From Bacillota bacterium (GTDB taxonomy: Bacteria > Bacillota > Clostridia > Lachnospirales > Bianqueaceae), in NCBI GenBank assembly GCA_017634575.1, contig JAGBND010000088.1, forward strand, positions 1 through 61,733: 61,733 nt of DNA. The letters are read 5' to 3'. How positions within the stretch are numbered: the stretch's first letter is position 1; every line of letters begins with the position of its first letter. The notes beneath the pieces are model-generated. The model had not been told where the DNA came from and searched no databases. It worked only from the letters and a program-made list of their open reading frames with translations. Of this stretch, positions 3,185 through 15,376 are shown piece after piece. Position numbers and translations under genes: made by a program.

Positions 3185-4054
3185 ATGGCTCTCAAATTAG
3201 GCTTGGAACTGTACTCTCTGCATTGCGTGCAGAAAGAACTGAACGAAAACCCAAGACAAGTCATTAAAAAGGTCCTGGATCTGGGTTTCCGCCACCTGGA
3301 ACCGGCAAACGCGCATGCCGAGAAAGATCCCGGAACCGGTTATCATATTCCGGCAGAAGAACTCCGTGATATGCTGGAGCCCTACGGCGCCAGGATCGGA
3401 AGCCATCACATCGGCAACCTGAATGACGAGACCCTGCCGGCCGTCATGGCGTACAACCGGATCCTGGGCAACCGCAATCTGGTGGTTCCGATCTATTTCT
3501 ATACCAGCTACGATCATATTATGCGGATGTGCGAGCATTACAACCACGTGGGCAAGGTGCTGATCGAGAACGGTTTCAACCAGCTGGTCTACCACAATCA
3601 CTATCATGAATATCAGCTTGTAAACGGCAAGCCCATTCTGTATTGGCTGATCGAAAACACAGCGCCGGAATATGTCCATTTCGAGATGGACTGCGGCTGG
3701 GATGTGCGCGCCGGCGAGGATCCGATTACCGAAATGAAAAAAATCGGCAACCGTCTGCGCCTGATTCACATCAAGGACTACAAGACGCGTCCCGCTAATT
3801 TGCTGATCGGCCGCACCGAGATGGTCAACTGGGAAAACTTCGGCGCGAATCATCAGGAAGGCGACAAGATGACCCCCGGCGATTTCGTCAGCGCAGGCGA
3901 AGGCATGATGCCGCTGGCCGAAATTCTCAAGACAGCGGATGAACTGGGCGTGGAGGCCGCCGTCTGGGAGCAGGATGATTGCGGCGAGAACCTATATGAT
4001 TCCCTGGCGAAGACGATCGAATATCTGAAACAGTTCAAACATCTCTATATCTAA
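3185..4054 (+). CDS. Sugar phosphate isomerase/epimerase (xylose isomerase-like TIM barrel)
   Basis: A 289-residue protein of the AP-endonuclease-2/xylose-isomerase-like TIM-barrel superfamily, which isomerises or epimerises sugars, inositol derivatives or keto acids using a divalent metal. Likely metal ligands lie in LVYHNHYHEY, HFEMDCGWD, LIHIKDYK and the late VWEQDD. Length is normal. The start follows AAGGAGG with good spacing. It stands alone between its own promoter and a terminator. Two further members of this superfamily are in the window (22300-23355 and the N-terminus of 10914-13427). The substrate is unknown. Confidence 0.85.
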   Translation: MALKLGLELYSLHCVQKELNENPRQVIKKVLDLGFRHLEPANAHAEKDPGTGYHIPAEELRDMLEPYGARIGSHHIGNLNDETLPAVMAYNRILGNRNLVVPIYFYTSYDHIMRMCEHYNHVGKVLIENGFNQLVYHNHYHEYQLVNGKPILYWLIENTAPEYVHFEMDCGWDVRAGEDPITEMKKIGNRLRLIHIKDYKTRPANLLIGRTEMVNWENFGANHQEGDKMTPGDFVSAGEGMMPLAEILKTADELGVEAAVWEQDDCGENLYDSLAKTIEYLKQFKHLYI

Positions 4055-10890: not shown

Positions 10891-10915
10891 AACACAGAGA
10901 ACCGTCCCCTGTGTT
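10891..10915 (+). repeat. Dispersed palindromic repeat, full copy
   Basis: A 25-bp imperfect palindrome: AACACAG at one end, CTGTGTT at the other, core AGAACCGTCCCC in between. On the minus strand its first two bases form part of the TAA stop codon of the 837-residue fusion gene, so the repeat begins exactly at the end of that gene. Confidence 0.8.
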
Positions 10916-13427
10916 AGATCTGCTGCGTACTCTTCGCAGTGTCGATGCCTGCGGCGTTCTCCAGGCCAAGCTCAGCGGTATACTGCTCCCGCATCTTGTA
11001 TTTCAGGATCTTGCCGGCAGCATTCATGGGGAACGCATCCACAAACCTGATGTAGCGCGGCACCTTATGACGGGCAAGAGATGCCTTGATGTATTTCAGC
11101 ATCTCCTCCTCGGTGCAGGTCTGGCCCTCCTTCAGGATAATGCAGGCCAGCGCCTCTTCGCCGTATTTCTTGTCGGGAACGCCGATGACCTGAACATCCT
11201 GCACGGCCGGATGGGTATAGATAAACTCCTCGATCTCCTTGGGATACACATTCTCGCCGCCGCGGATGATCATATCCTTCAGACGGCCGGTAATTCTGTA
11301 ATAACCGTTCTCGCGGCAGGCCAGGTCTCCGGAATGGAGCCATCCGTCCTTGTCCACCGTGGCGGCCGTGGCTTCGGGCATTTTGTAATAGCCCTTCATG
11401 GTATTGTAGCCGCGGGAGCAGAACTCGCCGTTCACACCGTCCGGAACCTCTTCCCCGGTCTCCGGATCGATAATCTTGCATTCCACATTCGGGAAATCCG
11501 ATCCGACCGTTTCGGTGCGTAGATACAGATCCTCCGTCCATTCACCCATGGTGCTGCCGGGCGAAGACTCGGTCTGGCCGTACACACTGACAATACCGGT
11601 CATATGCATTTCATCTTCCCTCGCCGCGCGGCGCATCAGCTCCGGCGGGCAGCCGGATCCGGCCATAATACCGGTGCGCATATGGGAGAAGTCTGTTTTG
11701 CGGTAGTCCTCGTGGTTGAACATGGCGATAAACATGGTAGGCACGCCGTTGAAGCAGGTAATTTTCTCCTGCCGGATACAGGCCAGGGAGTTTTTCGCGG
11801 AGAAATAAGGCATCGGGCACAGGGTGGCGCCATGGGTCATGGAGGAAGTCATGGACAGCACCATGCCAAAGCAATGGAACATGGGCACCTGGATCATCAT
11901 CCGATCCGCCGTGGACAGCTCCATGCGGTCGCCGATACATTTACCGTTATTCACCACGTTGTAGTGGGTCAGCATAACCCCCTTCGGGAAGCCGGTGGTT
12001 CCGGAGGTATACTGCATGTTGCAGACATCGTCCGCCCTGACCTGGGCGGCCATCCGGTACACCTCTTCCCTGGGCACCAGCGGCGCACGGTCCATGGCCT
12101 CATCCATGGTCAGACAGCCTTTCATCCGGAAACCAACCGTGATGACATTGCGAAGGAAGGGCAGCTTCTTGGACCGAAGCGGCTCACCCGGCTTGGTGGA
12201 TGCCATCTCCGGGCACAGGGTTTCCATAATCTGCTTATAATTGGAATCCAGACAGGACTCGATCATGACCAGGGTATGGGTATCCGACTGACGCAGCAGA
12301 TACTCCGCCTCATGAATTTTGTAGCCTGTATTCACGGTTACCAGTACCGCGCCGATTTTGGTGGCGGCCCAGAAGGTGATATACCAGGCAGGCACGTTGG
12401 TTGCCCAGATGGCTACCTTGGAGCCCCGCTTAACGCCCAGGGAAATCAAGGCCCGGGCAAAATCATCCACATCGTCCCTGAATTCGCTGTAGGTACGGGT
12501 ATAATCCAGCGTCGTATATTTGAAGGCATATTGGTCGGGGAATTCCTCCACCATACGGTCCAGTACCTGGGGGAAGGTCTCGTTGATCAGCTCATATTTT
12601 TTCCAGACATACTGGCCGGTATGGGCGGTATTGTCGTACAGGGTTTTCTTTTTGCCCCGGGTGTTTTCGAACCGGCTCATATAGTTCACAAAATGAGGGA
12701 AAATAATCTCCGGATCGTCCACCTCTTCCAGGTAGCCCGGTTTCCACTCCAGGGAGATAAAGCCATCGTAGTCGATGGAATACAGCGCGCGCATCATATC
12801 GGCGACGGGCAGGGTGCCTTCGCCGATCAGCTCGTAGCTGCCGTCCTCCAGGGAGTCCCGCAGATGAACATGGCAGACATAGGCGCCAAGATTTTTGATG
12901 GTGGTATCTGCGCTCTCGCCAAAATCGCGGTAAGGATGATGCATGTCCCACAGCACTGCCAGCTCGTCGTAGGCATATTCATCCATCAGGCGGCGCAGCC
13001 TGGAGGTATCGGCGTAGATGCCGCTGGTTTTAATCAGAATCGTCACCTTTAAGGCGATGGCCGACTGCAGCAGGGCATCGATGGAAGCGCGGACCACGTC
13101 TTCATGATCCGAGAGGGCAACCACACTGACATAGGGCACGGACGCATCGTGGGCCAGCTGCAGCATGCTGCGGATTTCCTCCACAGTGCCCTCCTCCGAC
13201 AGATCCAGCGACGTGTCAAAGCAAGGAATGGAAAGCCCTTTTGAACGGAGATTCCGGATGGTGCCGGCCACCGCATATTTGTGGAAGGGGCCGCCCCGGC
13301 CGATCAGAGCCTCTTCTTTTTGAATATTATAAAGCTCGATACCGGCAAATTTCATGGTGACAGCTGTATCGATATTTTCATCCCAGCTGAAATTCTGCCA
13401 GCCGCGCGTCGAAAAAGATAATTTCAT
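10914..13427 (-). CDS. Fusion of TIM-barrel sugar isomerase-like domain and AMP-forming acyl-CoA synthetase
   Basis: An 837-residue two-domain protein. Residues 1-260 are a xylose-isomerase-like TIM barrel (AP-endonuclease-2 family) with likely metal ligands in AVLWDMHHPY (about 157-166), HVHLRD (186-191) and SLEWKP (225-230). Residues about 275-820 are a complete adenylate-forming acyl-CoA synthetase: YTSGTTGFPKG (473-483), YGQTE (616-620), HSGD, GRLKDMIIRGGENVYP and the catalytic lysine in NAAGKILK (near 805). Both halves look intact and no stop or frame change separates them. The linker contains RGKKKTLYDNTAHTGQYVWKK. Such a fusion is unusual to me and suggests activation of a sugar-derived or hydroxy acid, which is inference. 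The start follows GAGGAG. Confidence 0.88.
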   Translation of the reverse strand: MKLSFSTRGWQNFSWDENIDTAVTMKFAGIELYNIQKEEALIGRGGPFHKYAVAGTIRNLRSKGLSIPCFDTSLDLSEEGTVEEIRSMLQLAHDASVPYVSVVALSDHEDVVRASIDALLQSAIALKVTILIKTSGIYADTSRLRRLMDEYAYDELAVLWDMHHPYRDFGESADTTIKNLGAYVCHVHLRDSLEDGSYELIGEGTLPVADMMRALYSIDYDGFISLEWKPGYLEEVDDPEIIFPHFVNYMSRFENTRGKKKTLYDNTAHTGQYVWKKYELINETFPQVLDRMVEEFPDQYAFKYTTLDYTRTYSEFRDDVDDFARALISLGVKRGSKVAIWATNVPAWYITFWAATKIGAVLVTVNTGYKIHEAEYLLRQSDTHTLVMIESCLDSNYKQIMETLCPEMASTKPGEPLRSKKLPFLRNVITVGFRMKGCLTMDEAMDRAPLVPREEVYRMAAQVRADDVCNMQYTSGTTGFPKGVMLTHYNVVNNGKCIGDRMELSTADRMMIQVPMFHCFGMVLSMTSSMTHGATLCPMPYFSAKNSLACIRQEKITCFNGVPTMFIAMFNHEDYRKTDFSHMRTGIMAGSGCPPELMRRAAREDEMHMTGIVSVYGQTESSPGSTMGEWTEDLYLRTETVGSDFPNVECKIIDPETGEEVPDGVNGEFCSRGYNTMKGYYKMPEATAATVDKDGWLHSGDLACRENGYYRITGRLKDMIIRGGENVYPKEIEEFIYTHPAVQDVQVIGVPDKKYGEEALACIILKEGQTCTEEEMLKYIKASLARHKVPRYIRFVDAFPMNAAGKILKYKMREQYTAELGLENAAGIDTAKSTQQI

Positions 13428-13450
13428 AGTCTATCTCCTCAAGAATAAAC

Positions 13451-13518
13451 GCCTCTGTTGAACAATCGGTACACTTCGGAGTTTTGACTTTAGTCAAAAC
13501 TCACACAGAGGCTCTGTA
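13451..13518 (-). other. Intergenic inverted repeats between the LeuA-like and fusion genes
   Basis: GAGTTTTGACT and AGTCAAAACTC form an 11-bp stem with a 2-base loop (13480-13502), enclosed by GCCTCTGT/ACAGAGGC (13451-13458 and 13505-13512). There is no T run, so it is not a classic terminator. It could be an operator, an mRNA-processing site or a repeat remnant. Confidence 0.45.
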
Positions 13519-13537
13519 ATTTGAATCCTTATATTTT

Positions 13538-14950
13538 TCAAGCCTCTGTTTCATAAACTATCTTATTCACTGCATTCAGATAAGCATGGATGCTGGCGCC
13601 CACGATATCCGTGGAAATGCCCTGTCCGGAGTACAGCTTGCCTGCGGAACGCAGCTTCACGACCGCTTCACCCATGGCCTCCCGGCCCTCGGTCACGGCC
13701 TGAATCTGGAAATCATCCAGCTCGTAATGATAGCCGATAATCTCGTCGATGGTATGGAAGGCGGCGTCAATCGGTCCGTCTCCCATGGAAATGCCGCTGA
13801 GGGTTTCGCCGTTTTTCATCAGCTTCATCTGGGCGGAGGCGCCGATGGTGTTGCCGGTATTGATGACGTAGGTATCCAGGATGTACGTAGGAGGCACCTG
13901 CATGGCCGCCGAAGCTACGATCGCATCCAGCTCCTTCATGGAGACCTTTTCTTTATGCGCCGCGATCCGTGTAAAGGCATCAAAAACCTGGCCTTCATCT
14001 TCTTCGGACAGGTCGTAGCCCAATTCCGCTACCGCCTTCAAAACAGCTTCTTCCGTATCGTGAGCGGTCAGAAATACATCCTCATCGCCTTCCGCAGCTG
14101 CCTTTTGTCCGGAGGCAGCATTTCCGGTGCGGCACAGGCGCTCAATCTGCCCGACCATCCGGTGAAGCTGCGCATAATGGATCCCTGTTTCAGCGCCAAT
14201 GCTTTCGCCGCGGGTCGCAATGAGGAAAGCGACATGCTCCAGATTGATGGAGTTCAGATCGTAGGCGGCAGCTTTGATTTCTGTAACGCCGGCACTGGTG
14301 ATGGCAGCCACCGCATTCGCATCTGCCATGGAGAGCTTATTGCTGCAGTCCACGCCCAGTCTGACTCTTTCAAGCGAAGGCACATTTTGTCTGACTTCAT
14401 TAATAAAGCCTGCAAACTCTCCCGGGAGCATATCCCCGGCGTTATCCACCAGCGTGATCAGGGACGCACCGCTTTTTACCGCTGCTTCCAGTGCTTCTTT
14501 GAGGAAGGACATGTCTGCGCGGGTTGCATCCACAGCGACAAATCCCACATCCTGACACTGAGCCGAAGCTTTGGAAACCGTGTCCTCGATCGCCGCCAGA
14601 AGCGCTGCCGGCTTTTTGCCTGCCAGATATTCCATCTGCACGGCGCTGACCGGTGCTTCCACCACCAGACGGGGATGAACCGCTTCCTGCAAGGCTTTCA
14701 CTGCGATATCAACGTTAGCCGGTTCGAGGCCGACGGGAACGGCCACGATGCTTTCCTTCACCGCAGAAGAAATGGATTTGATCAGCAAAGAATCAATCCG
14801 GTTCTCAGATATCGGGGTTGTCAGAATTGCATCCACACCCAGCTTGTCCAAAAGCTTGGCAAGCTCAATTTTTTCCCGGAAATTCAGGGAAAAATCGGCA
14901 CGGCGTGTGTTCTGGTTCATTGTCACATCTGTCATGGTGATCTGGTTCAT
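13538..14950 (-). CDS. LeuA-like protein with isopropylmalate synthase regulatory domain, catalytic motifs missing
   Basis: A 470-residue protein. The C-terminal 120 residues match the LeuA allosteric/dimerisation domain (GISMGDGPIDAAFHTIDEII, then GQGISTDIVGASIHAYLNAVN). The N-terminal part keeps the HMGL-like barrel pattern (FREKIELAKLLDKLGVDAI) but I see neither the RDGEQ motif nor the metal-binding HxH/CHND motif of real isopropylmalate or citramalate synthases; the equivalent places read NTRRADFSLNF and GVDCSNKLSMADANAVA. It is probably not a standard synthase and may be a regulatory or scaffold paralogue. An upstream in-frame TTG overlaps the GGAGG site, so the ATG at 14950 is the start. 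It is controlled by the T-box upstream. Confidence 0.85.
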   Translation of the reverse strand: MNQITMTDVTMNQNTRRADFSLNFREKIELAKLLDKLGVDAILTTPISENRIDSLLIKSISSAVKESIVAVPVGLEPANVDIAVKALQEAVHPRLVVEAPVSAVQMEYLAGKKPAALLAAIEDTVSKASAQCQDVGFVAVDATRADMSFLKEALEAAVKSGASLITLVDNAGDMLPGEFAGFINEVRQNVPSLERVRLGVDCSNKLSMADANAVAAITSAGVTEIKAAAYDLNSINLEHVAFLIATRGESIGAETGIHYAQLHRMVGQIERLCRTGNAASGQKAAAEGDEDVFLTAHDTEEAVLKAVAELGYDLSEEDEGQVFDAFTRIAAHKEKVSMKELDAIVASAAMQVPPTYILDTYVINTGNTIGASAQMKLMKNGETLSGISMGDGPIDAAFHTIDEIIGYHYELDDFQIQAVTEGREAMGEAVVKLRSAGKLYSGQGISTDIVGASIHAYLNAVNKIVYETEA

Positions 14951-15046: not shown

Positions 15047-15376
15047 ATAAAATAATAAATCCCTGAGGCTATTGACAGCCTCAGGGACGAAATTTCCGCG
15101 GTACCACCCTAATTCCTTCTTTTCCTAAGTCTGCCGGCATCAGGTCCGGCCATCTTAAGGATTGGAAGACAACTTTTCTCGGACTCCAACAAGTCCATGG
15201 CCTGTATCGGGGCCTACCGGGCTCACCTACTAACCGGTTTCAGATAAACTGATCGGCGTTGGGAAAACCTGCTCCGGAACCAGAATGCCTTGTGTTAAAA
15301 CCTGCTGCCTCGCACCACCCGGCAGCTCTCTGAAAGCCCTTTAACACTGCAAATTTCCTTCATCGCATTAAATTGT
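15047..15376 (-). promoter_or_regulatory. T-box leader (tRNA-sensing riboswitch) upstream of the LeuA-like gene
   Basis: The minus strand carries the T-box antiterminator sequence AGGGTGGTACCGCG (complement of 15097-15110), followed by a terminator whose 10-bp arms are CCCTGAGGCT and AGCCTCAGGG (complement of 15061-15086) and a T-rich tail. Upstream lies Stem I with AGAGAG and a distal GGTG-containing loop between GCTGCC/GGCAGC arms, and GTGTTAAA/TTTAACAC pair lower down. The leader would let transcription continue when the cognate tRNA is uncharged. The specifier triplet is uncertain: ATT (Ile) or CTG (Leu) in GGCATTCTGG are candidates, and both would fit branched-chain amino acid control. 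Confidence 0.92.

Follow-up and report, generated by a model that had tools for sequence, protein, structure and literature searches.

It has long been known that bacteria of the rumen and gut convert branched fatty acids to branched-chain amino acids. For isovalerate, the carboxylation and amination to leucine in the rumen is old biochemistry (Allison and colleagues, 1962 and 1966), as related in the excerpt of PMC7356843 used here. The MbcS ligase of Staphylococcus activates branched acids, prefers 2-methylbutyrate and isobutyrate and works poorly with isovalerate, according to the excerpt of PMC10026030. Here we describe a 61,733-nucleotide (nt) stretch of a Bianqueaceae genome (Bacillota; Clostridia; GenBank assembly GCA_017634575.1, contig JAGBND010000088.1), referred to at its full length as the window, in which one gene joins a xylose-isomerase-like triosephosphate isomerase (TIM) barrel to an AMP-forming acyl-CoA synthetase and follows a LeuA-like gene and a leucine-type T-box leader. 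This pair of genes probably represents the leucine branch of an isoacid pathway, the fusion serving as a CoA ligase of isovalerate type in a reductive-carboxylation route to leucine. The proposed conversion is identical to that of Allison and colleagues, whereas the fusion, the LeuA-like partner and the T-boxes come from the present analysis. The domains and the conversion were already known; their combination with leucine (Leu), isoleucine (Ile) and valine (Val) T-boxes and a predicted dead LeuA partner is unexpected, and the open-access literature searched yielded no description of a barrel-ligase fusion or of a catalytically dead isopropylmalate synthase. For T-boxes on acyl-CoA synthetases, it yielded one paper, which concerns Staphylococcus.

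The fusion gene and its parts are as follows.

10914 to 13427, minus strand: fusion gene, 837 amino acids (aa), xylose-isomerase-like TIM barrel plus AMP-forming acyl-CoA synthetase.
12669 to 13427, minus strand: barrel domain, approximately residues 1 to 253, placed by Pfam and the ligand columns.
12585 to 12668, minus strand: conserved linker between barrel and ligase, approximately residues 254 to 281, placed by alignment, with an AlphaFold2 predicted local distance difference test score (pLDDT) below 50 at residues 256 to 260.
10965 to 12584, minus strand: acyl-CoA synthetase domain, approximately residues 282 to 821, placed by Pfam, alignment and structure matches.

The original prediction, which named no strand, described a single uninterrupted frame of 837 codons holding two whole domains, a barrel and then an AMP-forming synthetase, and both statements are borne out. 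In Pfam, residues 20 to 229 match AP_endonuc_2 (51 bits; cut-off, 31.1), the family of xylose-isomerase-like barrels, residues 290 to 681 match AMP-binding (306.8 bits), and residues 731 to 806 match AMP-binding_C (68.2 bits). The ATP-binding stretch (residues 473 to 483) and K806, presumably the catalytic lysine of AMP-forming acyl-CoA synthetases, are unchanged across 50 aligned sequences, so that all the expected marks of such a synthetase are present and this activity is predicted for the domain. The whole ligase domain, the ATP-binding stretch and the C-terminal lysine are shared with synthetases of the ANL superfamily (PRK12583, FadD-like, 4-coumarate-CoA ligase fold), to which the fusion adds an N-terminal barrel and a leucine T-box; its top NCBIfam model, PRK12583, scores 662.2 bits, short of the curated cut-off of 832. 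The AlphaFold2 model of the fusion has a mean pLDDT of 85.3 and a predicted template modeling score (pTM) of 0.59. A structure search that tested residues 276 to 820 only returned CoA ligases (e.g., 5bsr and 3r44); it hardly tested the barrel, and the absence of barrel matches there carries no meaning. By sequence, the nearest solved ligases are feruloyl-CoA and fatty-acyl-CoA synthetases, both distant matches.

The fusion is conserved, as the homologue search that had been proposed for it confirmed: the same architecture runs uninterrupted through 22 of 392 genomes sampled from the order and 21 of 398 sampled from the phylum, the window's genome (G000) included. In the order sample, 31 genomes match a barrel-linker profile at an E value of 1e-20; 25 of them carry the fusion, cut by contig ends in G006, G016 and G066, and the other 6 have barrel-like matches without a fusion. 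In the phylum sample, 48 genomes match at 1e-25. Forty-nine full-length relatives align throughout the linker junction with 43 to 95% identity, W275 and L280 being nearly invariant and D290 and P297 invariant. A frame error at the junction is ruled out, since whole fusions recur across genomes, and close homologues are fused in many genomes rather than all separate. A scan of named genomes found at least 572 related loci; the best 80 of these all span residues 1 to 350, i.e., the barrel, the linker and the start of the ligase, and by title they belong to metagenome-derived Clostridia, Oscillospiraceae, Lachnospiraceae and similar, mostly from ruminant gut. One copy (L227, in G595) is broken by a stop or frame shift, and intact copies occur in the same genus (G570 and G642).

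Upstream of the fusion lie three further features.

13538 to 14950, minus strand: LeuA-like gene, HMGL-like domain without the metal site plus a LeuA_dimer regulatory domain.
15080 to 15372, minus strand: T-box leader (RF00230) upstream of the LeuA-like gene, specifier read as CUG (Leu).
15059 to 15088, minus strand: terminator-like hairpin with a stem of 13 pairs, where the leader ends, from a consensus scan.

The LeuA-like open reading frame (ORF) is open to TTG 14968, and its probable start is ATG 14950, preceded by GGAGGA. Its protein shares the HMGL-like and LeuA_dimer domains and the fold of LeuA, the LeuA_dimer match scoring 102.6 bits against a cut-off of 24.9, and differs from LeuA in having no metal Asp or HxH. 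The metal Asp of the LRD motif and both His of HxH are kept in 0 of 39 LeuA-like proteins, while ten real homologues, a mix of LeuA and related synthases chosen by the LRDG string, keep them all. The window's gene thus lacks the metal site of 2-isopropylmalate synthase, and judging from its sequence the protein is catalytically dead as such an enzyme. Conservation is higher in the regulatory half (mean pair identity, 67%) than in the catalytic half (54%), in 98.5% of 741 pairs, and the ten real homologues show the reverse (39% versus 50%; regulatory half higher in 11% of 45 pairs). The AlphaFold2 model (mean pLDDT, 90.3; pTM, 0.61) has LeuA and methylthioalkylmalate synthase as its best fold matches, and the regulatory domain has one real match among solved structures, 3f6g (E value, 6.2e-4). 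Of 91 loci, 64 have the stop of the LeuA-like gene overlapping the fusion start by 4 nt and 8 have an overlap of 1 nt, a count that leaves out the duplicate L035 and L192, a locus with a real LeuA. In the window the two genes are separated by a 110-nt gap (13428 to 13537, minus strand). By eye, this gap holds an inverted repeat, GAGTTTTGACT then AGTCAAAACTC, with no T run.

The window's leader matches the T-box family with 84.7 bits (E value, 4.3e-19 for a short stretch and 6.3e-17 for the whole window), its stem I loop holds a CUG specifier, and the conserved antiterminator box, GGTGGTACCGCG, is present. In relatives, 9 loci gave 12 T-box matches, of which 10 exceed the Rfam gathering score, as do both matches in a set of 3 loci. 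The terminator-like scan gave 7 sites against 5.4 expected, and the hairpin at the leader end has the longest stem listed. To read specifiers across loci, a motif search allowing one mismatch was combined with a script that locates the lower part of stem I solely from base pairing and takes as the specifier the three bases preceding this lower stem plus a one-base spacer; the specifier position and layout are those we take to hold for T-boxes in general, and they fit the printed Rfam alignments. Before LeuA-like genes, 52 of 72 motif hits could be decoded and all were Leu (CTG 38, CTC 12, CTT 2; 20 undecoded). Directly before genes of the fusion cluster, 11 of 15 hits were decoded, all as CTC (Leu), with 4 undecoded; one of the 15, at L213 (unfused ligase), is no T-box by Rfam. 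The leaders of L147 and L194, undecoded by the script, read CUC in the printed alignments. Of 44 hits elsewhere, 3 were decoded, as CTG; the other 41 were not, and many of these hits are probably due to chance. A Clostridiales-1 RNA (117.6 bits) lies at L147:12883-13048, a few kb past the fusion of G335.

Several neighbours of the pair point to branched-chain metabolism. In 94 LeuA-like loci, an MbcS-like ligase with helix-turn-helix (HTH) and cupin domains is found in 54, a P-loop protein in 40, a pyruvate:ferredoxin oxidoreductase (PFOR)-like gene in 17, and VorB, VorA, VorC and a branched-chain aminotransferase in 13 each; at least one of the ligase, oxidoreductase and aminotransferase genes is present in 72. 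The 29 fusion loci without a LeuA-like gene have one MbcS-like gene and none of the other partners. The neighbouring VorB scores 536.7 (cut-off, 399) and the aminotransferase 501.5 (cut-off, 307). Of 16 genomes with the LeuA-like pair, 12 have a VorB and 13 an aminotransferase over the cut-off, and the window's genome is among them in both cases, with VorB on contig C129 (548.1 bits versus 399) and the aminotransferase on C60 (451 bits versus 307), so that it encodes both a 2-oxoacid:ferredoxin oxidoreductase and a branched-chain aminotransferase. In G005, of the window's genus, the contig of the pair continues with an MbcS-like ligase, a P-loop protein and the start of a vorB-like gene, with VorB at G005:C25. 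An amidohydrolase was considered as a constant partner and rejected, being present in only 4 of the 94 loci; in some genomes of the family (L025, L026, L029 and L031) an Amidohydro_2 protein adjoins the pair, identified by Pfam in L025 and L026 and otherwise by cluster.

The MbcS-like ligases have MbcS as their top NCBIfam match, at 421.5 bits short of the cut-off of 850, and carry Ile or Val T-boxes. The 69 motif hits before them comprise 42 ATC (Ile), 8 Val (GTA 5, GTC 3), 16 undecoded and 3 misreadings (GTT 2, GGT 1), rejected because the script had positioned them in the distal loop. These ligases with N-terminal HTH and cupin domains (L061:797-3082, minus strand; L108:4895-7171, plus strand; and relatives) often stand two in tandem, one under an Ile and the other under a Val T-box; a CoA ligase with a domain of DNA-binding type is odd in itself. 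The fusion ligase belongs to a different ligase family. With the reported preference of MbcS for the acids of isoleucine and valine and its poor use of isovalerate (PMC10026030, excerpt), a division of labour with the fusion would fit. The MbcS-like neighbours under Ile and Val T-boxes also fit three parallel isoacid ligases, and they speak against an alternative in which the substrate of the fusion ligase is 4-methyl-2-oxopentanoate, an aryl acid or some other acid related to leucine, the T-box only reporting leucine demand. The feruloyl-CoA and fatty-acyl-CoA synthetases nearest to it by sequence would suit such a substrate, as would the unfused pair of L021, which adjoins PaaK-like ligases (Pfam) and genes resembling indolepyruvate oxidoreductase by eye; those solved ligases are distant, however, and we regard a substrate of this kind as unlikely.

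The ordinary leucine route is largely missing where the pair occurs. Fifteen genomes of the order sample have the pair (G000, G001, G003, G005, G006, G008, G009, G012, G016, G018, G263, G318, G333, G335 and G373), and in none of the 15 was a LeuA_dimer protein found besides the LeuA-like one; one genome from outside the order, G444, carries the pair together with another LeuA_dimer protein. Ketol-acid reductoisomerase is absent from 12 of the 15, compared to 79 of the 377 other genomes (present in 3/15 versus 298/377; Fisher P = 3e-6, uncorrected for kinship). Two genomes of the same family without the fusion, G010 and G014, encode a LeuA with HxH and [ST]LRDG, reductoisomerase, dihydroxyacid dehydratase and LeuC. 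In G004 and G011, HxH was found without the exact [ST]LRDG string; G015 has no fusion, LeuA_dimer or reductoisomerase, and G013 no fusion or reductoisomerase. The completeness of these genomes ranges from 68 to 100%. These absences also bear on another end for the ligase, the salvage or activation of branched acids for branched membrane lipids or acid removal. MbcS feeds branched lipids in Staphylococcus (PMC10026030, excerpt), and 3 of the 16 pair genomes have no VorB at the threshold used, which would agree with such a role; the leucine T-boxes, however, imply a need for leucine, VorABC and the aminotransferase co-locate with the pair, and real LeuA is missing from pair genomes, and we give salvage only a small chance of being the explanation.

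The barrel was compared with xylose-isomerase-like barrels of solved structure, whose AP_endonuc_2 match it shares. In a profile search it matches 3dx5 (AsbF; E value, 2.7e-18) and 8z1i (Art22), AsbF being the nearest. We take AsbF to be a 3-dehydroshikimate dehydratase and the Glu, Asp, His and Glu of this type of barrel to bind the metal; the ligand columns were set by alignment to it. In the window's barrel, K133 occupies the position of the first metal-binding Glu and the ligands D161, H188 and E227 are retained, so that the site reads Lys, Asp, His, Glu instead of the full four-ligand set. Across 93 fusions with a LeuA-like gene, counted without L192 and the duplicate L035, this column has Lys 85 times, Glu 6 times, and Arg and Ser once each, and the complete KDHE reading occurs in 80. 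In fusions without a LeuA-like gene, Glu and all four ligands are present in 28 of 29, the exception being a piece of the broken G595 gene; two of the comparisons count G066, whose upstream side was not seen, as a fusion of this kind. All 10 barrels adjoining an unfused ligase likewise have Glu and all four ligands, and Glu stands in 13 of 15 other barrels. Since the other three ligands are kept in most members of the LeuA-like clade, the pattern suggests a site retained with Lys in the place of the metal rather than free decay. A second xylose-isomerase-like barrel, at 3185 to 4054 on the plus strand of the window (30.5 bits versus the Pfam cut-off of 31.1; weak IolE match), shows no evident relation to the fusion operon.

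A tree was built from 73 ligase domains, comprising 33 of the 80 LeuA-like rows, 28 further fusions, 11 unfused ligases and 1 outgroup, whose very long branch leaves the root unsure. It places the fusions with a LeuA-like gene in one clade (support, 100/98), beside other fusions; two distant fusions, L143 and L144, fall outside the remaining fusions. The Glu-bearing fusions with a LeuA-like gene (L025, L026, L030, L147, L150 and L209) include the first branch of this clade and a basal group in the tree (L030 is not in the tree). Thus, the LeuA-like partner gene seems older than the Glu-to-Lys substitution.

Unfused relatives consist of an acyl-CoA synthetase gene followed directly by a barrel gene, at 9 loci by ORF calls and at L145 by coordinates, and this order is the reverse of that of the fused domains. 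Six of the 9 run on into an operon for a Por/Vor-type 2-oxoacid oxidoreductase (families checked for L219). At L222:8213-9031, a stand-alone barrel stands directly before Por/Vor-type oxidoreductase genes; the neighbours retrieved include no ligase gene, and this arrangement hints at a connection between the barrel and the oxidoreductase itself.

The original prediction envisaged a two-step channel in which the barrel isomerises a sugar or keto acid, or by extension epimerises or dehydrates it, and the ligase activates the product. That barrel and ligase genes adjoin even when unfused, that the four metal ligands persist in 28 of 29 fusions without a LeuA-like gene and in all barrels beside an unfused ligase, and that AsbF is the nearest solved barrel all speak for such a channel. 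In the window's protein, supply of the synthetase by a sugar-isomerase step is not supported: with Lys for the metal-binding Glu in 85 of 93 fusions, an isomerase channel is unlikely in the LeuA-like clade, and the T-box specifiers and the neighbours indicate leucine and branched-chain acids rather than sugar acids. We consider the channel very improbable as an account of the fusion. Catalysis by the barrel is possibly still alive in those fusions that keep the metal site, and a channel may exist in the 28 of 29 fusions without a LeuA-like gene that have all four ligands.

Leucine control, a LeuA relic, genes for Vor and an aminotransferase, the MbcS-like sister ligases with their Ile and Val T-boxes and the loss of the ordinary route come together in one scheme leading from acid to acyl-CoA, 2-oxoacid and amino acid, for which we infer the substrate, the direction of flux, the formation of a complex and the roles of the barrel and the LeuA-like protein. 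On leucine shortage, uncharged tRNA-Leu would bind the T-box leader, and transcription would continue through both genes of the pair. Using ATP, the ligase domain would then convert a branched short-chain acid, most likely isovalerate, to its CoA ester, which a 2-oxoacid:ferredoxin oxidoreductase (VorABC or PFOR-like) would reductively carboxylate to 4-methyl-2-oxopentanoate, and a branched-chain aminotransferase would yield leucine. MbcS-type sister ligases under Ile or Val T-boxes would serve isoleucine and valine. The LeuA-like protein, which retains a predicted leucine-sensing domain, would be a regulatory partner that may control how active the ligase is. The role of the barrel is the weakest part of the scheme; for this putative former metal enzyme we favour a structural or regulatory role in the LeuA-like clade.

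Several observations weigh against leucine synthesis from isovalerate. The window's T-box is below the Rfam gathering score (84.7 versus 93); a search of window positions 1 to 30000 at gathering scores gave no match, and the leader emerged only with an E-value threshold. The T-box motif occurs within 900 nt upstream of 67 of 92 LeuA-like genes; 5 have too little upstream sequence, and 20 of the remaining 87 are without it. In eight of these 20 (L052, L068, L080, L085, L087, L090, L097 and L113), vor genes and an aminotransferase lie directly upstream, so the leader could lie further up. The window's locus is one of the 22 LeuA-like loci with none of the ligase, oxidoreductase and aminotransferase genes nearby, and its genome's VorB and aminotransferase are on contigs other than that of the fusion. 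Among the 16 pair genomes tested, no VorB was found at an E value of 1e-60 in G001, G003 and G333, a piece in G012 is under the cut-off, and G001, G008 and G018 have no aminotransferase of this family. Parts of the ordinary route also persist: G001, G318 and G333 keep reductoisomerase and, alone among the 15, a dihydroxyacid dehydratase at E values below 1e-130 (weaker matches elsewhere are presumably sugar-acid dehydratases), and LeuC-size matches occur in G001 (in pieces), G009 and G016. The window's genome is 77.66% complete, so its absences are weak singly. Finally, MbcS itself is poor with isovalerate (PMC10026030, excerpt), and the fusion ligase lies outside the MbcS family.

A bolder form of the leucine-branch proposal, which we advance tentatively and hold to be rather less probable than its contrary, is that two proteins whose barrels have lost their metal sites, a dead LeuA with its leucine-sensing domain retained and a Lys-bearing barrel fused to a ligase, form one complex, an isovalerate CoA ligase answering to leucine on top of the tRNA-Leu T-box, which together with the Ile and Val sisters would make up a three-branch, tRNA-controlled synthesis of branched-chain amino acids from fermentation acids.

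If the leucine-branch proposal is true, a candidate ligase can be named for each branch of branched-chain amino acid synthesis, and the T-box codon would be a sequence sign that predicts the product of the ligase. It would also mean that a biosynthetic enzyme can persist after losing catalysis, perhaps as a sensor. The assignment of each ligase to its amino acid thereby becomes directly testable.

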